A DNA stretch of 64,000 nt. It comes from Magnolia sinica. Lineage: Eukaryota > Streptophyta > Magnoliopsida > Magnoliales > Magnoliaceae. Position 1 is the stretch's first letter. Every line of letters starts with the position of its first letter. A program made the position numbers and the translations under genes. The stretch is taken from the NCBI RefSeq assembly GCF_029962835.1, contig NC_080577.1:4278001-4342000 (forward strand), read 5' to 3'. The notes beneath the pieces were generated by a model that searched no databases, had not been told where the DNA came from, and saw only the letters and a program-made list of their open reading frames with translations. This document shows, in pieces, positions 438 to 60,294 of this stretch.

Positions 438-3400
438 CTATAAGTTCCGCTCTATAAATTCCCAGATCCTCTCTTCCATATAAATACGGTCCCTGAGCCG
501 ACGTGGCATGTGGCGCTCATCTGGAAAAACCAAAAGCTCATAGGGCTTGCCAGCCGTGACGAATGCATTCACAAGCCTTGCCGTGTGCCTGAAATGCACA
601 TTCTCATCGATCATCCCATGCACAAGCAGCAACTTCCCTTTGATCTTCTGCACATGGTGCATGACAGAACTGTATTCATAACCCGCTGGGTTTTCCGAGG
701 GCAAGCCCATGTACTTTTCCGTGTAGAATGTGTCGTACCCGTCCCATGCTGTCACGGGAGCGCCAGACACCGCGCACCGGAACATGTCGGGGAACCTTGC
801 TAGAGCCATGGCTGAGAGGTACCCACCATAGCTCCATCCGTACAGGCCAATCCGACCTGCTTTTGCAAGGCCCTGTTTTATGAGCCATTCGGCTCCTGTG
901 AGTTGATCTTCGGCGTCGATACGGCCAACATTGTATTTAAGGGAGCCCTCGAACTTCAGCCCACGCCGTGCCGTCCCTCTATTGTCTAGCTGCAAATATG
1001 AAGGAACGTGAACAAGTCATACAGCGATGTCAAAAGATCAGAAACCTTTCAAATTGTTGCAGTAATGAGCAAACATGGAATGCATACAAATGACATGAAC
1101 AAAGATAATAAACATGGAATGCATACAAATGACATGAACAAAGATAATAAACATGGAATGCATACAAATGACTTGAACAACGATAATAAGCCCATCAAGA
1201 AGGGAGATGAATGCTCAGTTATTGGACTGATGGAAATCCACAGATTTTGCAGGTGATACCAAAATTCCTAATTTGTCAAATCATTACTGAACGAACCTAC
1301 ATGGATATGAATACAGCTGTATCTTGCCATCCACATTTCATAGTTTTCAGTTAAAACTTTTTTTCGCAGTGCATTTTTTTTCAGGGTTCTAAGGTAGGGT
1401 ACTTGAAATTTTCAATCAAGACTGCAGTTCTCTTTATCTTTAATTATTTTCCACTTGACGTGCATGAAATATGTTTTCCGGAGTTCCAATGAGCAAAAGA
1501 CTTTTTTTTTCCCTACCTTGTTTCTTTTTTCTTGTGTTTTTTTCCATATTGCAATTGGTTTGAATATCTTGCATGGATGGCTTTCATTTTGCCGTGCATT
1601 TGGGATGGGTGAAAAGTCAGAGAAATGCACCTCACCAAACATAGCTTGCAATTGCCATGCCACCTCAAATGCACTGTGGAACTAAATCATCTGTTGTGCC
1701 GAAGTAATCAAACCACTTGGCAACCCTAGTTTCAAACTTCTATAAATGATCCACGTAGTACAAAGTGCAAAATATTCAGATTGTTCCTATTAACTGACCA
1801 TCTACATGAATCTTAAACCCTGTTTGGTAGACGCCTAAAAAATGAGTAGATCTCATTTTAGCTAACAGTAATTATGTACTAGAGATATTGATCTCTAATA
1901 CATAATGAGTTCACACTGATAGTAATTATGTAACGGAGATCAAGATCTCCAATAAATAATTGCTGTTAACTAAAATGGGATAAATTCATTTTCAGGTGTC
2001 AACCAAGTAGCTTCATTCAATATAATAAGGGTAGAGTCTGCCCCCAAACCAAAAGAAAGATAACTTGAGTGCTCAGACCTTGTCTTTATATTTTGCTCCA
2101 CCTAAATGTCTTCATATTCAGCAAGATTAGCATTTCATGGAAAAGAAATCTTACACATCAGGTAGAAGTCCTATTTAGCATTCAAGTCACAGAAAATGCA
2201 TGTGCTCCGAACTTTCAGTCATTTATTCAGTTGGGGGGCATTTGGATCGTAAGTTACTTAAGATAAGCTACTTATGCCTTAAGTAGCTTATCTTGATTTC
2301 TACTTATTAAACTGAAGTGATTAAGTAATTTTGAATAAAAATGCTACTTATAATTGATCATAAACCTAACTTGCTCATCTCAAATAAGTTACTTATCAAC
2401 TGCCGTAAGTAGAAAAAGTAACTTATTTGGTAGTATCCAAACGGGCCCTTGGCATGTCAAGGTTGCGGTCAATACATAACAAAACAAAAGCATTTTATAG
2501 ATAAAGGAAAGTTATCAAAAGAAGTTCAATTAAAAGAATTCAGACTGAGTTGTACAGTTAATTGGTGGAACAATTACCAGGAGAAGCATATTTTCGTGGG
2601 AAACTGACGATGCAGTTATATTTGCGAGGATGCATTTCATACTGAAACAGTCTATAAGAGCCTGTTTGAATTGGTGGAACCCAAAAAAGTTAAACGTGGA
2701 AAAGAAAACGTTTTCTGCTGATTGCGTTAATAAATTAACATACGAAAACTGTTTTCATCCGAACAGTTTCCTCAATAGAAGGCATTTTCCTTTTCCATTT
2801 TGAAATTTGTTAATCTCATTGCCACACTTTTTGAGAAACAGATTTCACTTTTTGATCATTGACCATTGTATTTTTCCCTGAAAATCACTAAAGTTCAAAC
2901 AAACATCCTTTTTAGGATTCTTTTCCACCAATGATGCTATCCATGATTTTCCTCAAATGTGATATTTTCCTTTTTAGACCTACTTTTCAGGTTCACCAAT
3001 CCAAACAAGCCCTAAGAGATAACCCATGGCAGAATGCACGTACACAGTAATAGGCAGATACTGACCTTCCATACTAAGATGCCTTTGCTCCTTAAATACT
3101 GAGCTCTCATGTCAACTGTATTCATCCATGAATCGGAAACAAGCTGGACACTTGGACCACCATAGACACTGATTAAGGTCTTGTAAGGAGGAGGTCCAAA
3201 CCTTTTCGCGTCAGGCCTGTATAAAGCCCCATATAAAACTGTGCCATCATTTGCTTGTATATGAACAATCTCCGGGGGCAGAAGTTGAAGCCTTTTGAAT
3301 CTAGGGACTGTAGATGGTTGCTCGTATAGAGGCATTATTAAGCTTCCATCGTGCAATGAACAAAGCAACACCCGAGGTGGTGTGTTCAAAGAGTCATGAA

Positions 3401-6400
3401 CATCAACAAACCTCTGCATCTGATGATCAAGGACAACAGCATGTCTTCCCTTGCCATCAGTCAACCTCTGTGGAGGCTGCAACGGAAGGCTCCAATCAGG
3501 GAATAGATTGGTGCAGTATAAGTGACCCTGCAAAGGCCCATCCTTGGTTCCAGTGAAATATACAAGACCTGCATTCTCATTGACACCAGAGATTTGCTCA
3601 ACCATCCAATCGCCTTCTGTGATGGGCCCCAAGCAAACCCCATTCCTATCATGAAGATAGAGATGTCGAAAGCCTGTCTTATCACTAGCCCAAATAAATC
3701 CTCCAGAAAATTTATCGACTCCCTTGTCCAGAGGTGTAAAACATTCATGTAAATTGACCCATGTGTCCTGTTCTTCTACCAGTAGAACTTCCCTTTTGCC
3801 CGTACTGATATCAAACCTAAGAATCTTTAGTTTGGAGTGGGTCCGGTTCAGAACTTGAGTTATCAGACTGTTTCCAGGCATCCAACTGACCCTGGCCAAA
3901 TATTCTTCATCCTTGTTGGCTTCATCCTGGCTTCCGCAGAGAAGGTCCATCCAAGTAACTTCCCCACCACAAGCAGAAACAACCCCAATCCGGACTTTGA
4001 CATTTGACGTTCCAGCAAAGGGATAGGCGTGGTCTTCCTGTGCATCTGAACCAATGGAGTTTTTTCCTTGATGCATGATTCTGAAAAGAGGTATCTCTGA
4101 TGCATCAACTTGTGTGAATGCAATGTACTTGCTATCCAGTGACCACCAGAATCCAGCCTTTCGGTCCATCTCCTCCTGCAGGTATGAAAAATGAGCAGAT
4201 GAGACAGAATTTGGGTGACAGCTGTAGAAAAAAAATCTTGATTGGGGGAGAGAGAGAGAGAGAGAGAGAGCCAGGAATCACACCTGTGCAATATATTCAG
4301 CAAGACCATGCGTCTGAAAACACAAAAGAAACCAGAACTGTCAGATTTAAAGGATCTTAACTAGTTTTCAGCAAGCTTAGTAATTTCAACTTACATCGTT
4401 TCCCTCAAATAACATCTAGCTCGAATTGATACTGTAAGGGCATGCAGCCATACAATGCCGGAATTAATTTCTCAAAAACCAACAAACACTATAACACAAA
4501 ATGTTCTGTGCAGGATACTTTGATTATTAAGTGTTGAAAGTGGTGCAGAAATGATGCGAATGAAGTTTGCAGTGGAAAAGAAATTTACACGAGAAGGAAC
4601 AAGGAAAAAGCAACTCTACAGGGATCACAATTCACAACCCCAAAAGTCTCCTCAGAGAACTAATTTCACTAAGAGGAAAACATCATGAACTCCCTTCATC
4701 TTCCTTTCATTGTCATAACAAAAGAAAACCTAGGTGGCCATTTGGTAGCAAGAAAAGTTGGAGCCCGCCCCTGGCTTGTCCAGGCTTAAACTTTTGGAAT
4801 TGCAGTCCAGCATTTGTTAAGAAATATCCTACCCACAAATCCAAGAAAGTCAGGCATGGATTGTCTCTGTTTTTACCATTAGCAAGGTCTCCCTTGTCTC
4901 TGCAAATAGTCAACTTTTGGTAGACCAGAGCACATATCCTCTCGAGTTTCATACGTCTCCAAAGCAGGAGTCCTCTGTGCATTGAACTTTCATCCATCCA
5001 TGGTGGCCCCGCAGACAAACATGTGGTAGGCATCCCATTGCTCCCTGTAGAGCAGCCCACCTAAGTTTTGGATCTAGCTAATTTTTTGCCCTGCACACAA
5101 ATGATTGTTGCTGATGAACATGTTTTGGGCATCCTATCTTCATGTATTATTCTATTTCTAAAATTATGCTTCAAACTATATCTACTTGGAGGATAATATA
5201 AATCTTCAGGAATTATTCTATTTCTAAAGTTATGCTTCAAACTATATCTACTTGGAGGATAATATAACATACGTGATCTATCTACTTGGAGGATAAGTAT
5301 AACAAATGTGATCTATGCAGACACGCCCACCAATACCTCCAAGTTACAAGACGTATTCAGCAGATTGGGATGCCCTTCCTGCGATTTTTTTCCTACCAGA
5401 ATTGATGAAAAGGTTTTACTGTCTTAAATAATGTAAGGTGTGGGATGTTTTTTTTTTTTTTTTCTTTTTTTTATATACCAGAATTGATGAAAAGGTTTTA
5501 TGGTCTTAAATAATGTGAGGTGTGGGATGTATTAATCTATGTGGGTACTTCATTTGGGATCTTTCTTTTTTTTTTTTTTAAAGTTTAAGGCAAAGTGGGT
5601 GGTGGATGAATGTAGTCGAATTATTTGTATAATAGTTATTTATCTGCATTAACTCCTAAATAGTCTTAATATAGGGTAGTTAACAAACAGCAGATGGGCC
5701 TATCCTCCACAGAGACCCAGACAGGTCTGATCAGGACTAGATAGACTTCAACAAACAACAGACAAGCTATGTCAAGTGAGATGTATTAGTCGGGTGGGAT
5801 TCATAATGAATTGATGGCTTCAACAAACAGCAGACAGGCTTGTTCTTGGCAGACTACAGACTTCAACAAACAACAGAGATGCCTAACCAGGACAACATTG
5901 GCCTAGCTAAACAAGACCAGGACAGGCTATCCAGGCTTGAACTTCTCCTACAACCAAACGGACCCTAAGGACATACTAATATATCTTCTAGTCTTAATCA
6001 CTAATCTCACCCAACCTGCTAACTTTTAATTCATCCCATCTTGTTGACCCACAGAAAATAATTTTTGTGCACCCTATTTAGGATCCAAATAGACCGTATA
6101 GGTTCCAATAAACCCTGGAGTCAAGGTATTAAAAAATGGTTACATAAAGGTTGCCGTTTTGTGTTATGGGGCCACAACAGCCCATATTGTAAAGGTAATG
6201 GCCATGGCTGTTACGATCACTGTTACCATTATGAAATACCTTGCCTGGAGCTGTGTCCTTCACAAAACCCATTTTTCTTTGCATCAAGATAAATAACTTG
6301 TCACTTCCTAACTGAGGTAATTACTAAGGAGCGGGTGAGAAAATCATGATATACAGCTAATAATGGTGTGTGCATAATCAAGGGAAAATAAATAGCAATT

Positions 6401-9741: not shown

Positions 9742-10246
9742 GGAAGCGGATTGCGTACTGAGTAAACTCTGTGGGGTCCACTGTGATTTATTTATTTTAT
9801 CCACTCCGTCCATCCATTTTAGAATATAATTTTAATTAATAATACAAAAAAGAAGTATGTAAAAAACTCAAATGGACCACACCATAGGAAAAAAATGTTA
9901 ATTGAAATTCTACCGTTGAAAATTTCTTGGGGTCCACATAAGTTTTTGATCAAGCTAATATTTGTCTTTTCCCTTAATCATGTCTCTATGGTCTTATTTA
10001 CAGGTTGGATGACAAATAACCATCTCTATGGGCCTTAGAAAAGTTTCAACGGTGGAAATCATTATTCCCACTTTTTCCTATTGTGTGTTCCACTTTAGCT
10101 TTGGTTATACTTCAATTTTGGACTCAACTACTAAAATGAACTGGAAAAACGGATGGACGGCGTGGATAAACTACATACATTCAGAGGTGGACCCAAAAGA
10201 ATTTACTCAGTACGATAAAAGAGTACTGAGTACGCAATCCGATTTC
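9742..10246. mobile_element. Foldback element, CGGATTGCGTACTGAGTA family (copy a)
   Basis: Starts ggaagcggattgcgtactga and ends with the inverse (tacgcaatccgatttc). The interior arms are inverted to each other (accacaccataggaaaaa / cctattgtgtgttcca) around a centre with tttgatcaagctaatatttg. The flanks GCTAAAAA / AGCTGAAA look like a decayed 8-bp target duplication. It begins 241 bp upstream of the protease start codon. Confidence 0.85.
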
Positions 10247-12268: not shown

Positions 12269-12783
12269 TTGAATCGGATTGCGTACTGAGTTACTCAGTA
12301 CGCTCTTATCGTACTGAGTAAACTCTGTTGGGCCCACCGTGAAACTAAGTGGTTTATCCACACTGTCCATACGTTCTTTCAGCTCATTTAAGGCGTTGAG
12401 CCCAAAGTTGAAGTATATCCAACTCTCAAGTGGATCATACCACAGGAAACAGTGGGAATAATGATTTCTACCGTTGAAACCTTCCTAGGACCTACAGTGA
12501 TGTCTATTTGTCATCCAAGCTGTTAATAATATCACAAAGACATGGATGAAGGAAAAAAAGCAAATATAAGATTAATATAAAAATTCTGTGACACTCAAGA
12601 ATTATGCAACGGTATAAGTTCATTTCACACTGTTTCATGTGGTGTGGTTCATTTGACATTTGGATATCCTTAAATTTTGGATCTATGTGATAAAATTATC
12701 TAATAAAATAGATGGACGGAGTGGATAAAGTACATAGATCATAGTGAATTCCACAAAGTTTACTCAGTACGCAATCCGCTTCC
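12269..12783. mobile_element. Foldback element, CGGATTGCGTACTGAGTA family (copy b), 8-bp target duplication
   Basis: A 515-bp element flanked by a perfect GACAATCG duplication (12261-12268 and 12784-12791). Just inside the left end is a perfect hairpin with 11-bp arms gcgtactgagt / actcagtacgc and a one-base loop, then a further tcgtactgagtaaactctg. The right end is the simple form. It has no coding capacity. The 8-bp duplication and inverted termini suit a non-autonomous hAT or Mutator-like element. Confidence 0.9.
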
Positions 12784-42512: not shown

Positions 42513-45180
42513 GGCTCTGGGGGGCCCATTGTGATGTATGAGTTTATCCACACCATCCATCCATTTTTCCATATTATTTTAGGCTATAAGACCAAAATTG
42601 AGGCAAGCCCAGGGCTCAAGTGGACCACACATATGGGATTAAACACCCACCATTAAAAACTTCTTGGGAGCCGCAGAAGTTTTGGATTGGATCAAGCTGA
42701 TATTTGTGTGTGAACGCCGCTTGCATACTTCTCAATCGTCCCATCCTGTGATGAGGATAGAAGGAACAAAAGTTTGCACGGCCCATCACCCTTTAGGGGC
42801 AATATGCCCCATAAAGGTGATTTGTTTGGCTTGGTTTTGTTTCCTTGATTATGTGATGCCATTCCGACATAAATAGAATGGTACTTTTGGAATGTTTGAA
42901 GGTTTTGGAGTCGACACTAGCCGAATTATAGCTTCAAAATCTACGGTTAGCCGGAACCCATAGAATTGCCGAATGGACGACAAATCCATGAAACTGTCGA
43001 TTAGAATTACTCATGTATTGGTCCGTACCATAGATGTTGGGTAAGGGCCTTGGTTACAGAAAATGAAGGGGTTAGGCACCATTTTCCGCCCAAACACTCA
43101 TACGGTCTCTACTTGGCAAGGTTTTATTGATTTCTTTAAAAAAGAAAAGAAAAGAAAAGAAAGATGTGAGTAAGAAACGAAAAAAGAGAAGGTTGTCTCC
43201 ATCTTGGAATGTGCAGAACCAAAATTGATTAGTGTTGAAGAGGCGGGGAAAAGTGTGAAATCAGATACTCTTCTTATGCAAAAGAGATAATCGGATGTCC
43301 CGATTGTACCCATACTATTCACCTGAGCTGCTTCGATAATTGGTCATGATGGAGGTTTACTAATGATCTTACACCGCTGAACCCAAGCAATGGACTTGAT
43401 GTTCGCACCAATCTCTCCAACTCAAGACCAACACTTCTTGACTTAAGTTTGAATGTTCACTCTTTGGCCAAGAGTTCTCACTGACCTATCCATGCGCCGC
43501 AATTGACTTCGTCACTCTGTCTCATTTGCTCTTCCAACCAAGTGCATTTATAGTGTGAAACCAACAATTTGGTGCTAATTGTTGGTCTCCATAGGTTAGC
43601 ATAGGGTCATAGGGCGTCAGTAAGATGGGGGTGTAAATCAGTAAGAACTCTCGGTCATAAATTTGCCATCTGAATTTAACTCTAAGGTGTTAGTCTTGAG
43701 TCAAGGGCGATCAAAGAGAACGCCAAAGCCACTAGGATCCAATGGCGCCAGATCGTCAAAAATACCTATAATGGCCAATTATCAAAGCAACTCAAGTGAA
43801 GAGTAGTGGTACGATCAAGGATGTCCGATTATCTCTTTAACATAAAATGAGTATCTAATTTTTCCATTTTTCCATTTTTCCTGCCTCTACAAGATGAATC
43901 AATTCTAGTTCCACACATTCCCAGATCGAGACAATCTTTTTTCTTTTTGTTTCTTGCCTTGCTTCTTTTCTTATTTTTAGGATTCAATCAATATGTGACT
44001 AAGCTAATGCTTGACTAAATCCCCAAAGAAATCAATAAGACCCCGTTAAGTACAGACCCTGCAAGTATATGGGCGAAAAAGGGTGCCTAACTCCTTCATT
44101 TTCCATGACCGGGGCCCTTACCTCAGCATCTACGGTACATACCAGAGAAAGAGTCAATCGAGCCAAAAAGTCCTCGTATTTCTGGTCCTTTTTGGTGATT
44201 CTACAAATCCTAGCTAGCCGTAAATTCTAAAATCATGATTTGACTAGTGGCGACTCCAAAAAATTATAAGCGTCCCAAATGTGCTACTCTATCTACCTTA
44301 GATAGGTATTGCACAACCAAGTCAAACAATTCACTTACATGAGGCATACTACTCCTAAAAGATAATGGGGTGCGCAAACTTCCGTTTCTCCTCTCTGATA
44401 GTATGTGCGGAAGAGTGAGCCCTCAAGATCTAACGGTCTACACGATATGGAACCTTCACAAAACCAAAGATGAACGGTCCAGATCTAGCAGTCCACCTAA
44501 CCACAACTGGAGCAGATGGGTCTAATCACCCCTCTAATTCTACGGTATAGATGGCCCCGGATTACAATCTATGGCTTAGATCGTCCCAAGGCAAGCTAAA
44601 CGGATAAATTTCTATATACCATTATTCCTCTTTTTACTCTAGTTATTTCTGATATCTTTTCACAAGAGAGCCTTATCTTATTTATAGGAAATTATGAGAG
44701 TTTAGATGAGACCAGAAATTATCCGGTCTTATCCCTATCTCCCCATTTAAATCCAAATTCAAATTTGAATTTGAAATCTATTTGCTAACGTAAGAGGCCT
44801 CAACTCATGGGACCCACCCACTAGTGATTGCCCACCAGTGGGCCCCACTGGCCTATTTCCAACACTCTCTTCATAAAAGGAATGCGACAATCGTGGAGAT
44901 TGTGAGCAGCTTTCACATTGTGTTTTGTCTTCATCAAGATCTATGTGACCTTATGAACAGGTTAGATGGCAAATAAACATCACCGTGGGCCCTAGGAAGG
45001 CTTCAGTTGTGGGCATCATTATCACCACTGCTTCCGGTGGTGTGGTCCACTTGAGCCTTGGATCTACCTCATTTTTTGGATTATACCCTAAAATGACATG
45101 GAAAAATGGATGGCCGATGTGGATAACACCATATATCACTGTGGGTCCCTCAGATTCCCAGAGAGTTAGTACCCAATCCG
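42513..45180. mobile_element. Foldback GGGCCCACC repeat split by a 2.2-kb insertion
   Basis: Left half 42513-42708 (gggcccattgtgatgtatg, ctcaagtggaccacacat, gatcaagctgatatttgtg) and right half 44923-45180 (cttatgaacaggttagatgg, ggtgtggtccacttgagcc, ending gtacccaatccgg) rejoin exactly once the insertion and one TTGTG are removed. Confidence 0.8.
42709..44917. mobile_element. LTR-like insertion (TGTGAA...TTCACA, 5-bp duplication TTGTG), mostly one giant hairpin
   Basis: A 2209-bp fossil insertion flanked by TTGTG (42704-42708, 44918-44922) with TG...CA ends. From about 42715 to 44412 the left and right halves are imperfect reverse complements. Examples are aatgaaggggttaggcacc at 43062 against ggtgcctaactccttcatt at 44084, and aaagagataatcggatgtcc at 43280 against ggatgtccgattatctcttt at 43818. 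A perfect 10-bp hairpin (accaacaatt / aattgttggt) at 43560-43586 marks the centre. The last 500 bp are unpaired and include a reverse-strand TATA-like cctataaataagataagg. No protein-coding region is recognised. Confidence 0.75.
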
Positions 45181-45447: not shown

Positions 45448-45987
45448 GGAAGCGTATTGCGTACTGAGTAACTCAGTACGGTAAGCGTACTGAGCAAACT
45501 CTGTGGGCCCCAGTGTTATTCATGCATTGTATCCACTCCGTCCATCTCTTTTAACACATAATTTTAGGGCTCTATCCCAAAAATGGAGTATATCCAAACC
45601 TTGAATGGACCACACCACCGGAAACAGTGTGAATTGAACATCTACCATTGAAAAATTCTTGGGGACAATAGAAGTTTTAGATCACGCTGATATTTGTTTT
45701 TTTCCTTCATCCATGTCTTTCTGATCTTATGAACATGTTGGATGACAAATAAACATCACTGGGGGCCTTAGAAAGTTTTCAACGGTTGAAATCAATACTT
45801 CCACTTTTTCCAGTGGTATGGTCCACTTGAGATTTGTATATGCATGAATTTTGGTTTGAACCCATAAAATGATCTGGAAAAACGAATGGACGGAATGGAT
45901 AAACTACATGCATTCGAGGTGGGCCCAACTGAGTTTACTCAGTACGATAAGAGCGTACTGAGTAACTCAGTACGCAATCCGATTTCC
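45448..45987. mobile_element. Foldback element, CGGATTGCGTACTGAGTA family (copy d), 8-bp target duplication
   Basis: 540 bp, flanked by TTTTTTTA (45440-45447, 45988-45995). Both ends have the full subterminal hairpin (gtactgagta-actcagtac) followed by a further cgtactgag repeat. The most complete copy in the window. Confidence 0.9.
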
Positions 45988-53825: not shown

Positions 53826-54302
53826 GGGAAGCCGATTGCGTACTTAGTAAACTATGTGGGGTCCACCGTAATTTATGTATTTTATCCAGTCTATCCATCC
53901 ATTTTATAAGATAATTTCAGGGCCTTAGATCAAAACCTAAGCATATAGAAGGCTAAAATCGACCACACCAACGGAAACAGTTTGAATTGAATTTATACCG
54001 TTGAAAAATTCTTGAGGGCCACAGAAGTTTTGGATCAAGATTATATTTTTTTATTGTACCTTCATCCATGTTTTTTGATCCTTTGAACAGTTTGGATGAA
54101 AAATAAACGTCACTGTGGGGCTTGGAAAGGTTTCAATGGTGGAAATCATTATTTCCACTGTTTCCTGTGGTATGGTCCACTTGAGATTTTTATAAGCTTC
54201 AATTTTGAGTTCAACGCCTAAAAGTAGATGAAAAAACAGATGGAAGGTGTGGATAGATCACATAAATTCACAGTGGGCCCAACTGAATTTTCTGAGTATG
54301 AC
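53826..54302. mobile_element. Foldback element, CGGATTGCGTACTGAGTA family (copy e), nested
   Basis: Left ggaagccgattgcgtactta; landmarks caatggtggaaatcattatt and ggtatggtccacttgag. The right terminus is decayed (ttttctgagtatgaccg). Confidence 0.7.
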
Positions 54303-54490: not shown

Positions 54491-56329
54491 CGGTATATAG
54501 CTGCTATATTGGTGTCAGCAAGTTCGGTGGGTCTGATCATAAGATCTGTGTTATATCCGAACCATCTATCCATTTGGAGAGCTCGTTTTAAGGCTTGAGA
54601 TGAAAAATAAGACAGATCTAAAAGTAGATCAGACTGCGAAAACCAGTGGGAGATTGAACGGCTACCATTGAAACCCTTTTTGGGGTCATAGAAGTTTTGG
54701 ATCTCATGAACTAGATGTAAAATAATATGATGTTCACAGAAGCTTTTGGATCTTATGAACTGGATGTGTTTTGGATCTCATGAACTAGATGTAAAATAAA
54801 CATTATGATATTCACAAAAGTTTTTGGATCTTATGAACTAGATGTGAAATAAACGTCACGGTGGGTCCTACAAATTGTAGGGTGAAAATCATTATCTCCC
54901 TTCGTATGATTTTCACCGTTCGTATGTAACCAAGACCTTCGCTAGCTATTGTCACCAAGACCTCAGTGTCGAAACGAAGTATCTTTCACAAAGTCTGCCA
55001 CTAGAGCTATGGATGAGGGTGTACTAAGCAACTAGCAAAAAAAAACAAAAAAAAACTTCATTAGTGCACACCTAAGAATAGGAATTTCAAGAGAGCTACT
55101 TAGATACTTCAAGAGAGCTATTTTGAAGCTTTATAATTTAATTTCGTACTAAAAATTATGTAAATAGTTGAAGTAGATAGTATCTCATTAAATATAAATT
55201 AAATATAAATATGTACAGGGGACTTTAAAGCCTATATATACATATAGGGATCTTTATTGTAATAAAACAAGTGGAGAATAACCTCTTGTTCCTCTTCTAA
55301 TTTGTTTAGAAATTTAAAAGTGTTAAAGGCCTTTCTAGCGCTGCCTCATTTTTGTTGATTGGCATTACGATGAATGGCCAGGATGAATGACATGTGTGCC
55401 CTACACACGGATTCACCTCACATGAGGGGCCACAATCACCGCCTGCGAAATAGGACACACACCGTCTATGTGCTAGTCAAGCTAGAGTAGAGTAGTGATT
55501 GCAGGGACGCAGATTGAGTACAACCGCCGTCCGTCCCTAACTTCTAACGGTCAGGGCTCTATAGGGCTATCATGATGTATGGGTTCTATCCAATCCATCC
55601 ATCCAAATTTACCTATTATTTTAGGCTAGAACCCAAAATTGGCGCAGATCGAAGGCTCAAGTTGTTGGGCTTAAACATTTACCGTTGAAAAAAATTTGGA
55701 GGCTACAGAAGTTTTGGATCAATCTGGTATTTGTTTTTTTCCTTCATCCAAATTCATGGACCTTACTCTTGCTCCGGTGGTAGACTCCTGGGGGTGTTTG
55801 GAGCATGGGATTAAATGGGTTTACGAATGTTTTAACCTTGATGATTATTATCCTCACTGCCATATGTGGTGTAGGCCACTTGAACTTTGTATATGAGTCA
55901 TTTTTGAGTTCATGTTCCGAAATGATCGTGCCAAATGTATAAACGTTGTGAATATAATAAATATATTATGGTAGGGCCCATGAAACTTTGATAACCTCTT
56001 AGGAAGCGGATTTGTTGGTGTGCCTCACACCAACTATATATAGCTGCTGTATTGATATCAGCAAGTTCTGTGAGTGTAATCATGATGTATATATCATATC
56101 CAAACAGTTTATTCATTTAGCGAGCTTGTCCTAAAGCTTGATAAGAAAAATAAGACAGATGTAGCTATCAAGTGGACCACACTGCAAAAAGCAGTGGGGG
56201 ATTAGGAACCATGGGCTCAATCGGTCAGATATCAAAACCCATTGCAAAAATGTGAGGCCACCCATTATAAGATTATTATTTAAGTACATGCCAACACGCT
56301 TGGATATTGCAAGAAGGAAGGCATGAAAG
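54491..56329. other. Foldback-repeat and SINE fragments
   Basis: Related fragments at 54491-54700, 55560-55985 and 56003-56240; the last starts ggaagcggatttgttggtgtg with a perfect gttggtgtg / cacaccaac hairpin. Tandem phrases tttggatctcatgaactag recur at 54690-54860. SINE-like pieces lie at 54940-55030 and 55757-55800 (ctccggtggtagactcctgg). No gene. Confidence 0.5.
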
Positions 56330-57544
56330 TCAATATAAACATACAAATATTTAATTTTTAAAGTTATTTTAAAGAAATGATGATACATGCGCGGAGACAT
56401 TTGAAAGTGATGGAAAAGGAAGACAGATGGTATCTTTCTTGGAATGCGGATTGGAAAATGTGTCATTTATACCAGACATGCCATGTTTGTCTTTGCAAAA
56501 CCTACACAAATTTTAATTTCGAAGAAGTTAGGCCCATGGTTTAAGTAATCCAAACCACCGTTGCACTGATATTTTCAGTCATCCGTAGGCCATGGCCCTA
56601 GTGAGTACTGTTACCGGCAAAATCTGACTGAACTAGACAAGTAGTTCAGGAACAAAGATCTAGTAAAGATCTGACACCCAGATCCATAGCTCAACTAGCG
56701 GACTGAGTGGAGAGATACCTTGTTTCAACACTCGAGGTCTTAGTATGGATCTCTAGCGGAGGTGGCTAACATTGAGTGTGTGTACTAGCATAGGTGCGTA
56801 CTAACAAGCTAACCCAAAAATTAAAAAAAAAAGAGTAAAGATTTGGATATAGAAAGCCAAGCAAGACATCTACACATCTACCATGATTAAGAACTACAAG
56901 CCAGGACTTTGGCTCGGGGCTTACACCTTGTTACCACAACAAACAAATGATTATGAGTACCGACTCAGCTTTGAGGATGGACAACGACTATAACCAATAG
57001 TTCGGTTCAATATGTAAGACCTCGGCCAAATTGACTTAGATGTCAACATCAATTGTCGACCACAAACTCTTTGGAGTTGACCGCGAGAGATCTCATTCGT
57101 GTACGAAAATGATTAATTTCATGATATCTTCGTCAAGAATCGCTCCAAGGATAATACCGTGTATCCTGAGGATGATTCTCTCTACAATATGCACTTATCA
57201 ATAAGGAAACTTACCCAAAACACAACTGGTGCCATGCAACTATAAATAAGAACCATCCACATACTAGAATGTGAGGTATGCACAAACTCCCTAACTCAAC
57301 TAGACCTAAATTTTCTATTGTAACTTAGGCATTAGAGAATCTCCTATGCAAGTATCTGAGAGTCTAAGAGGGGCGATCAGAAAACTACATCAATAAGTGT
57401 GAATTGTTAATGCATTCTAGAATAATCCCAACCATTCAATCTTGAATGGAAAATGAATGGTGCATATTGATTATAGTAAAGGTCCTCTCATTGATTTGGA
57501 ATATATATGATACGGCCTACCTTTGATTGCTATTTTTAAGGTGA

Positions 57545-57587
<43 letters not shown>

Positions 57588-57789
57588 GTTGGAATTAGGG
57601 AGAGCTATTGGTACGACAACTTAAGATTATAACTATAAATAGGATCTCCCAATTTAAGAAAATAATGCATTAAGTAAATATAACATGTTAAAACTATAAT
57701 CAAAACAAGTGTTCCAAAATCCAAGCTCCTTTCATTAGCCTAATGAATTATGCTATAATACATTATTTTATAAATAGGTTTGTAATAAG
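56330..57789 (+). repeat. Direct repeat unit 1 (about 1.46 kb)
   Basis: From tcaatataaacata to ataggtttgtaataag, nearly collinear with 58854-60294. Contains a SINE-like insert (56676-56835), a TATA-like aactataaataagaac, a cacaaactccctaactc leader-like segment and (GA)n at 57547-57585. The central part could be a fossil LTR, but its ends were not resolved. Confidence 0.85.
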
Positions 57790-58853
57790 TTTTTAATTGT
57801 GGAAGTTAAATTAGCTTGATCCTAAACTTCTCCAGCTCCCAAAAAGTTTTTAATTGTGGAAGTTAAATTCCTACTTTGTGGTCCACTTAAGCCTTATTCC
57901 TACTTCATTTTTTGTATTATACATTTAAATGATATGCAAAAAATTATGAACGCCGTGGATAAAATATTTACATCACTTTGAGCCCCATATAGCCGAGCCT
58001 GCGCAAAAACCATTACCCCGGCGCTGATTCCAAGAAAGGGCTTCACAACCCATTCCGCATGTGACTCCCAAAACATGATATTATCTTAAAAACCACTCCC
58101 ATCTAATCTCATTTAAACTCAGGCGCCAAACGCCCACCTGGTCAAGGGTTCGAGTAGCCATAGGTGGTGAAATTCCATAAGGTCCATGGGCCCTATGAAC
58201 AGTTTGATGTGAATTAACCTTCACGGTGGGACCAATTTGTGGCACCAAAATAAAGGTTAAACTGAAAACGTCAACGGTGCAGATTAACTAAGCAGATTCC
58301 TCCTAATTTTAGGTTTGGTTTGCCCACCCAATAAAATTAAACATAAAAACCTCTAAATTCATGTCTTATGGTCCACCTGAGATTTCGAACACTTATTGGG
58401 GGGGTGGCCTACCTGAATTCTGGGTGGTCGCGATTGTATGGTGAACATGATGCAACGTACGAGACGGACGGGTGAAATGCTCTTGCTGCAGCGTAGGCGA
58501 TGGACGGTGTGAATTTCTCGTGGATCCGTTTGGTTGATCTAAAAAGAAGAGAAAATAAAAATAATAACAATAAAGCAGCCATCATTACTTTTCTTCTCCT
58601 TTCATACTCCAAATCAGAAGCGGATTGGCTGGTGTATCATACACACCTACCCGGCTGATTTGCTGACGTCACCAAGTTATTTAGGTCCCATTACGAGGCA
58701 TGTGTTATATCTAAACCGTCCATCTGGCTATCTCTTCGCAAGGCTTGAGCCAAAAAATAATATAGATTTAATGATCAATTGGACAGCACAGCAAAAAAAA
58801 GAAAAAAAGAAAAAAGAGGAATTGATCATCTACCATTGAAACCCTTTCGGGAG
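57790..58853. other. Spacer between the two direct repeats
   Basis: Right arm of a foldback repeat (57870-58000; gtggtccacttaagcc), a SINE-like piece with ggtcaagggttcgagtagcc (58130-58180), and from 58617 the left end of another foldback element (gaagcggattggctggtgta). No gene. Confidence 0.5.
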
Positions 58854-60049
58854 TCAATGTAAACATAAAAATATTTAACTTTTTAAGTTATTTTAAAGAA
58901 ATGATGATACATGCACGGAGACATCTGAAAGTGATGGCAAAGGAAGAGCGGATTGAAAAATGTGTCATATATAGTAGACATGCCATGTTTGTCTTTTCAA
59001 AGCCTACACAAGTTTTAATTTGGAAGAATTTAGGCCCATGGTTTAAGTAATCCAAACCACCGTTGCACTGATATTTTCAGTCATCCGTAGGCCATGGCCC
59101 TCTTACTGGCAAAATCTGACTGAACTAGACAAGTAGCGCAGGAACAAAGATCCAGTAAAGATTGACACCCAGATCCATAGCTCAACTGGCATACTGAGTG
59201 ATCCCTAGCAGGGGTGGCTAACATGGAGTGTGTGTACTGACATGGGTGTGTACTAACAAGCTAACCCAATACAAAAAGAGAATAAAGATCCGGATCTAGA
59301 AAGCCAAGCAAGACATCTAGACATCTACCATGATTAAGAACTACAAGCCGGGACTTTGGCTCGGGCTTACACCTTGTTATCACAACCAACAAACGATTAT
59401 GAGTACCGACTCGGCTTTGAGGATGGACCACGACTATAACCAATAGTTCGGTTCAATATGTTGGATCTCGGCCAAACTGACTTAGATGTCAACATCAATT
59501 GTCGACCACGAATTCTTTGGAGCTGACCATGAGAGATCTCATTTGCGTACCAAGAGGATTAATTCTATGATATCTTCGTCGAGAATCGCTCCAAGGATAA
59601 CGCTGTGTATCCCGAGGACGATTCTCTCTACAATACGCACTTATCAATAAGGAAACTTACCCTAAACACAACTGGTGCCATGCAACTATAAATAAGAACT
59701 CTCCACATATTAGAATGTAAGGTATGCACAAACTCCCTAGCTCGACTAGACCTAAATTCTCTGTTCTAACTTAGGCATTAGAGAATCTCTCATGGTCTCC
59801 ATTGTCATTGTTCTTTCCATAGCCATGGTCTCCATTGTCATTGTTCTCTTGCAAGTATCTGGGAGTCTAAGAGGGGCGATTAGAAAACTGCATCAATGAG
59901 TGTGAATTGTTGATGCATTTCTAGAATAATCCCAACCATTCAATCTTGAACGGAAAATGAATGGTGCATATTGATTATAGTAAAGGTCCTCTCATTGATT
60001 TGGAATATATATGACACGGGCCTACCTTTGATTGCTATTTTTAAGGTGA

Positions 60050-60094
<45 letters not shown>

Positions 60095-60294
60095 TGGAAT
60101 TAGGGAGAGCTATTGGTATGACAACTTAAGATTATAACTATAAATAGGATGTCCCAATTTAAGAAAATAATGCATTAAGTAAATATAACATGTTAAAACT
60201 ACAATCAAAACAAGTGTTCCAAAATGCAAGCTCCATTCATTAGCTTAATGAATTATGCTATAATACATTATTTTATAAATAGGTTTGTAATAAG
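58854..60294 (+). repeat. Direct repeat unit 2 (about 1.44 kb)
   Basis: Second copy of 56330-57789. The SINE-like insert is shorter here, and a 30-bp phrase (atggtctccattgtcattg) is tandemly doubled at 59790-59845. (GA)n at 60053-60092. Confidence 0.85.

Follow-up and report, generated by a model that had tools for sequence, protein, structure and literature searches.

The Magnolia sinica genome carries an inserted palindrome of 1735 bp, built from two mirrored LTR segments that entered the chromosome in a single insertion and later interrupted by a Copia-type solo LTR, so that the insert now measures 2209 bp (positions 42709-44917 of the window, the 64,000-nucleotide stretch of contig NC_080577.1 analysed here). 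An LTR element would be expected to enter a chromosome with a U3 end on one side and a U5 end on the other. Here both outer borders are LTR starts and the LTR end is absent, so the inserted molecule had the form U3-axis-U3. The chances are about even that it was an aberrant DNA copy made from an LTR retrotransposon and inserted a single time, which would have arisen by fold-back near the U3/R boundary and been integrated by its two U3 ends. The parts of the insert and its target site, with the evidence used to place them, are as follows.

42515-45126 (42515-42708 and 44918-45126), no strand: host repeat split by the element (window repeats, empty-site alignment)
42704-42708, no strand: target duplication, left copy, TTGTG (empty-site alignment)
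42709-43559, plus strand: left arm, 851 bp as far as the central repeat, from the LTR start TGTGAA through the TATA-like box (arm alignment, relatives, match to locus L030)
43547-43553, plus strand: TATA-like box TTTATAG of the left arm (motif scan of relatives)
43560-43586, no strand: central perfect inverted repeat with a 10-bp stem and a 7-nt loop, axis at 43573
43587-43637, minus strand: innermost part of the right arm (alignment with the left arm or L030 not above chance)
43638-44395, minus strand: main part of the right arm, an inverted copy of the left arm's LTR segment (arm alignments, genome search)
44391-44395, no strand: duplication of the nested solo LTR, left copy, CTCTC
44396-44864, minus strand: nested solo LTR of 469 bp, Copia-type family (genome matches, frames of L009-L011)
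44865-44869, no strand: duplication of the nested solo LTR, right copy, CTCTC
44870-44917, minus strand: right arm, outermost 48 bp, with TTCACA at the end (end score 26 versus 10)
44918-44922, no strand: target duplication, right copy, TTGTG (arm and empty-site alignments)

LTR-retrotransposon insertions are recognised by TG...CA ends and a target duplication of 4-6 bp, and the palindromic element (42709-44395 plus 44870-44917) has both. For the 2.2-kb insert, TG...CA ends and a perfect 5-bp duplication had already been identified in a sequence-only reading of the window, and these observations hold, the ends being TGTGAA...TTCACA and the duplication TTGTG on either side. By BLAST, the joined flanks have matches spanning the junction at 10 further places in the window, and all 7 of the aligned flank paralogues in the window continue without the insert; these uninterrupted paralogues therefore represent the empty site, with TTGTG as the target duplication. 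Both arms thus belong to a single insertion, with one 5-bp duplication, TG...CA ends and empty-site paralogues. Once the nested LTR is removed, the outer element is palindromic from end to end (599/808 ungapped columns identical, 74.1%, with 119 gap columns), and the left arm's outermost 67 bp score 26 against the true right end versus 10 against the sequence now adjoining the right arm. What sets the element apart from a normal element or solo LTR, with one U3 and one U5 end, is that an LTR start lies at each border. The host repeat belongs to a fold-back family with copies in the window at 9753-10246, 12272-12772, 45485-45986 and 53838-54301, plus fragments, at roughly 65-80% identity, and the copy near 45450-45984 contains the perfect palindrome GCGTACTGAGTAACTCAGTACG twice.

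The sequence-only reading had treated the insert as one 2.2-kb LTR-like insertion, which is replaced here by the palindromic element and a nested solo LTR of 469 bp, each with a separate 5-bp duplication. It had also allowed that the structure might prove to be two independent insertions with their own target duplications; the 2.2-kb insert as a whole does consist of two such insertions, but its two arms do not, having a single duplication and a single empty site in common. When the whole insert was searched against the 1.84-Gb genome, 42 matches were obtained from 40 scored of 1989 candidates, of which two were the insert itself and the other 40 all fell within insert positions 1684-2170 (window 44392-44878), 39 of them at 85-90% identity and one, a short match, at 95%. 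The nested sequence occurs at L009, L010 and L011 as LTR pairs spaced 7.85-7.88 kb apart; a single 2.2-kb LTR with an internal hairpin was rejected because the last 469 bp recur genome-wide in this paired form and without the arms. Frames between the paired LTRs matched RVT_2 and the integrase core in L011, the integrase core in L010, and gag_pre-integrs in L009 and weakly in L010 (the integrase core of L009 being below the cut-off), which identifies the family as Copia-type. The coding frames of L009-L011 are oriented opposite to the nested LTR as read on the plus strand of the window. With its own TG...CA ends and CTCTC duplication, paired LTRs elsewhere and RVT_2 between them, the nested part is a solo LTR, and it landed later than the palindrome, 48 bp from the latter's right end. 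Raw divergence between the nested LTR and its relatives is 10-15%, whereas the arms differ from each other by a K80 distance of about 0.32 over a slightly different stretch, and this greater divergence of the arms fits the order of nesting. Annotators should be wary, as repeat finders would either miss such a dimeric palindrome, with a solo LTR nested in it, or call it one 2.2-kb element. At one further locus (L016, G000:C3:94602501-94608000), two copies of the nested-family LTR lie in inverted orientation at 2532-2896 and 4677-5041 and are 93% identical.

The arms have their own relatives in the same genome. With 42709-44390 as query, 477 candidates were obtained, of which 40 were scored; these yielded 83 matches, with non-self identities of 64-87%. 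Wherever a place was matched by both arms among those scored, the two covered one and the same stretch from opposite strands, the place being a single unit. Twenty relatives were fetched with their flanks, and 19 contain one unit; the exception, L034, contains two inverted units with their starts facing inward, the second of which was absent from the matches of the 40 scored candidates. The arms correspond to the first ~790-800 bp of an LTR family about 1.17 kb long, whose start and extent are taken from L032, both L034 units and two places on C18. Since they match this LTR from its start inward, both outer ends of the palindrome are U3-type ends and the U5 end is absent; the ~300-bp end part is missing from both arms, and fuller relatives extend ~300 bp further. 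An inverted duplication of an LTR or leader segment had been suggested from the sequence, and the LTR segment is borne out by the match of the arms to single LTR units elsewhere, but its placement within one 2.2-kb element is not. Collinear copies of the same inverted structure, for which that reading had advised a search, were not found, none of the 20 fetched relatives being a pair with U3 outward.

The L032 unit (1178 bp) was matched nearly full length at four other places, comprising both L034 units and two on C18, when 40 of 108 candidates were scored; LTR pairs of the arm family were not found in this search. The units end in GGTGTCTACA in L034 and GGTGTGTACA in L032, where the unit has no inverted partner and is flanked by AGATG before and AGATA after (4/5). 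Exact target duplications were not found at the ends of most relatives. These solo LTRs, L032 and the two L034 units, share with the arms the LTR start TGTG, the U3 sequence and a retroelement-type insertion, but they are single units of ~1.17 kb that include the last ~300 bp, whereas in the palindrome two truncated units are mirrored with the LTR starts outermost. L034 (G000:C4:16024001-16029500), where two full units lie within 1328-3707 and are identical at 917/1170 columns in an alignment that includes some flank, was considered as an object of the same kind; its starts face inward, the DNA between is AT-rich and no matching 5-bp duplication was seen, and the pair is probably two insertions. 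In 10 of the 20 relatives (L033, L035, L036, L038, L041, L043-L046 and L049; no coding match seen) the unit is preceded by a shared module of up to ~1.3 kb, which is lacking in L032 and L034 and is read as the internal region beside a 3' LTR. No polymerase or other classifying frame was recognised beside the relatives when the frames were inspected by eye. Several units of the arm family are clustered within about 1.3 Mb of one chromosome (G000:C9:84.66-85.49 Mb).

At the centre of the palindrome, the two arms behave differently. The inner part of the left arm aligns with L030 to about 43578, past the TATA-like box, and none of 200 shuffles was as good. A similar motif was found 550-1000 bp from the LTR start in 15/20 relatives, versus a mean of 5.3 and a maximum of 10 in 200 shuffles, although the relatives are homologous and their motif counts are therefore not independent. 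The axis lies 26 bp past the start of the box, which would place it near the expected transcription start and hence near the U3/R boundary, a placement taken from the box-to-axis distance and so from the motif itself. The arms are of similar length to the central repeat (851 bp left, 857 bp right). However, the right arm is clearly LTR only to about 43638, and its inner 51 bp (43587-43637) were no better aligned than shuffled sequence with the left arm (287/500 shuffles as good) or L030 (184/500), the nearest sequence being L031 (7/200). As this segment matches neither the left arm nor L030, it is not demonstrated that the arms join symmetrically at one position of the LTR. The arms were also considered as complete short LTRs around a primer-binding site, which is ruled out by the alignment of the loop with L030 beyond its TATA-like box and by the fuller relatives, which end ~300 bp later.

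In the proposed origin, reverse transcription would leave a DNA strand with its end close to the U3/R boundary; this strand would fold back through a short inverted repeat and be copied into a linear U3-axis-U3 molecule; integrase would then join this molecule by its two U3 ends, and the palindrome would decay in place after insertion. Fold-back is favoured as the source of both arms by the palindrome reaching both ends, the like arm lengths, the central 10-bp repeat and the agreement of the left arm with L030 up to the axis, while the unalignable inner right arm lowers its odds. The boldest form of this reading is put forward more tentatively, at somewhat less than an even chance: that fold-back at the U3/R boundary allowed a plant LTR retrotransposon to make a palindromic U3-U3 cDNA, which integrase then inserted through both U3 ends while leaving a normal 5-bp duplication. 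If true, the element would be the fossil of an aberrant route of reverse transcription and integration, and an inverted pair of LTR promoters, which would make RNA antisense to the family's own U3, would have originated in one step. A mirror-axis element of this kind, cleanly inserted through two U3 ends and centred close to the promoter, would show that plants can complete a fold-back cDNA and integrate it, and how a single event could give rise to hairpin or antisense loci directed against a transposon family.

Related molecules are known from other retroelements. PMC4751563 describes autointegration yielding inverted two-LTR circles in Ty elements and retroviruses; like the palindrome, these are aberrant products of integrase or cDNA with inverted LTRs, but, as described there, they are circular and keep the internal sequence, whereas the palindrome is a linear U3-U3 piece in a chromosome. 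Similarly, short palindromic LTR-LTR junctions of retroviral two-LTR circles are reported in PMC1905944 to be cleaved by integrase in vitro, and in these, too, LTR ends are presented symmetrically to integrase; the junction described there is U5-U3 and spans a few bases, compared with a U3-U3 palindrome of ~860 bp here. No inserted U3-U3 LTR palindrome came up in searches of the open-access literature, PMC5659011 included, which takes in few subscription papers.

Other origins have to be weighed against this one. The inverted arms running end to end, the target duplication and the second inverted pair at L034 could suggest an ordinary copy of a fold-back transposon family, or of an LTR family whose LTR is palindromic, but this is improbable: fold-back or long-TIR DNA transposons have multiple copies of the same inverted structure, and here, with 40 of 477 candidates scored, 19 of the 20 fetched relatives have one unit and L034 has the opposite topology, while L032-type units end in one or other of the two sequences given above and L032 lacks an inverted partner. 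The centre (43380-43770), used as a genome query, likewise matched nothing but itself, though at ~70% identity this is a weak test, with 1 candidate in the initial pass. Another origin would be two LTRs inserted separately in opposite orientation, with deletion of the DNA between them and a duplication shared by chance. It would be in keeping with L034, where inverted units sit 138 bp apart, but it calls for the outer ends to agree over 5 bp by chance (about 1 in 1000) and for zero loss of host sequence relative to the paralogues, and is considered highly improbable.

A more serious rival, though still an unlikely one, is that the arms derive from two different cDNAs of the family and were never identical, whether by concerted integration of two U3 ends with loss of the sequence between or by an intermolecular template switch at a short repeat. 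One molecule folding back would give arms identical at birth, which should therefore be sisters, and the best trees do not pair them. In the 23-row tree the left arm groups with L030, L040 and L042 (96/97), but forcing the arms together costs 10.1 log units (AU p 0.173), and in the 28-row tree, where the arms are again not sisters, the forced clade costs 2.9 (AU p 0.35); the clade is rejected in neither. Site counts, polarised by outgroup majority and given in the order arms together / left arm with relative / right arm with relative, lean slightly against the arms as a pair for L030 (11/18/20) and more so for L031 (21/8/34), with which the right arm shares sites, but favour the pair for L042 (31/21/24) and L040 (26/18/15). 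In a common alignment, identity is 69% between the two arms, 73% between L030 and the left arm, and 70% between L030 and the right arm. With the right arm as a genome query, five to six places, including L031 and L030, outrank or come near the left arm, which is seventh. Relative counts of the two arms are near equal against L030 (112 and 90), as for equal age, and unequal against L032 (116 and 77), and private gaps relative to L030 amount to ~45 bp in the left arm and 16 bp in the right. This pattern of trees and sites would suit a burst-like star just as much as a pair of parent molecules; arms identical at birth are neither supported nor rejected by the trees, while some site counts lean against them. 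The dissimilarity of the inner right arm to the inner left arm also speaks for two cDNAs, but the similar arm lengths and the perfect central repeat would then be a coincidence.

The giant imperfect hairpin recognised in the sequence-only reading is confirmed, with a self-complementarity score of 481 versus a mean of 17.7 and a maximum of 25 in 50 dinucleotide shuffles, and the arms align over 42731-43484 and 43638-44419 with 527/727 ungapped columns identical (72.5%). RNA folding, which that reading had advised, gave for 42709-44395 -691 kcal/mol for the plus strand and -742 for the minus strand, compared with a mean of -418 (sd 12.6, lowest -465.5 kcal/mol) in 25 shuffles of the plus strand, and 505/754 left-arm bases were paired with the right arm in the plus-strand fold. 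The perfect mini-hairpin noted at the centre is present (43560-43569 with 43577-43586, loop 7); in minimum-energy folds of 43440-43700 or 42709-44395, 0/10 of its pairs were formed. The present duplex is interrupted, the longest Watson-Crick run being 15, or 22 (plus strand) and 26 (minus strand) when G.U pairs are included.

Long inverted repeats can act as silencing loci, as in the case of Mu killer. Like that locus, the palindrome is a long inverted repeat of transposon sequence and potential dsRNA; unlike it, its arms are LTR sequence with a retroelement-type duplication, at a locus known here from DNA alone. An active left-arm promoter would be predicted to start near the axis and to transcribe the right arm antisense to U3, while the TATA-like site of the right arm itself is degenerate. 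Since the promoter of each arm would start near the axis, only read-through RNA from outside would form the long hairpin. That the inverted repeat, whatever its origin, has been kept as a small-RNA source silencing the arm LTR family would draw on the very stable predicted fold and on helices that reach 22-26 bp with G.U pairs, but Watson-Crick runs of 15 at most and the degenerate right-arm site make this a remote prospect; such a role would be compatible with all the other explanations of origin.

Elsewhere in the window, a direct duplication of ~1.4 kb (56328-57789 and 58852-60294) shows uneven divergence, identity being 85% in the first 1 kb but 96% in the final 0.44 kb, and the minus strand of 438-4274 contains exons of a plant dipeptidyl-peptidase-IV-like gene (Peptidase_S9, DPPIV_N).
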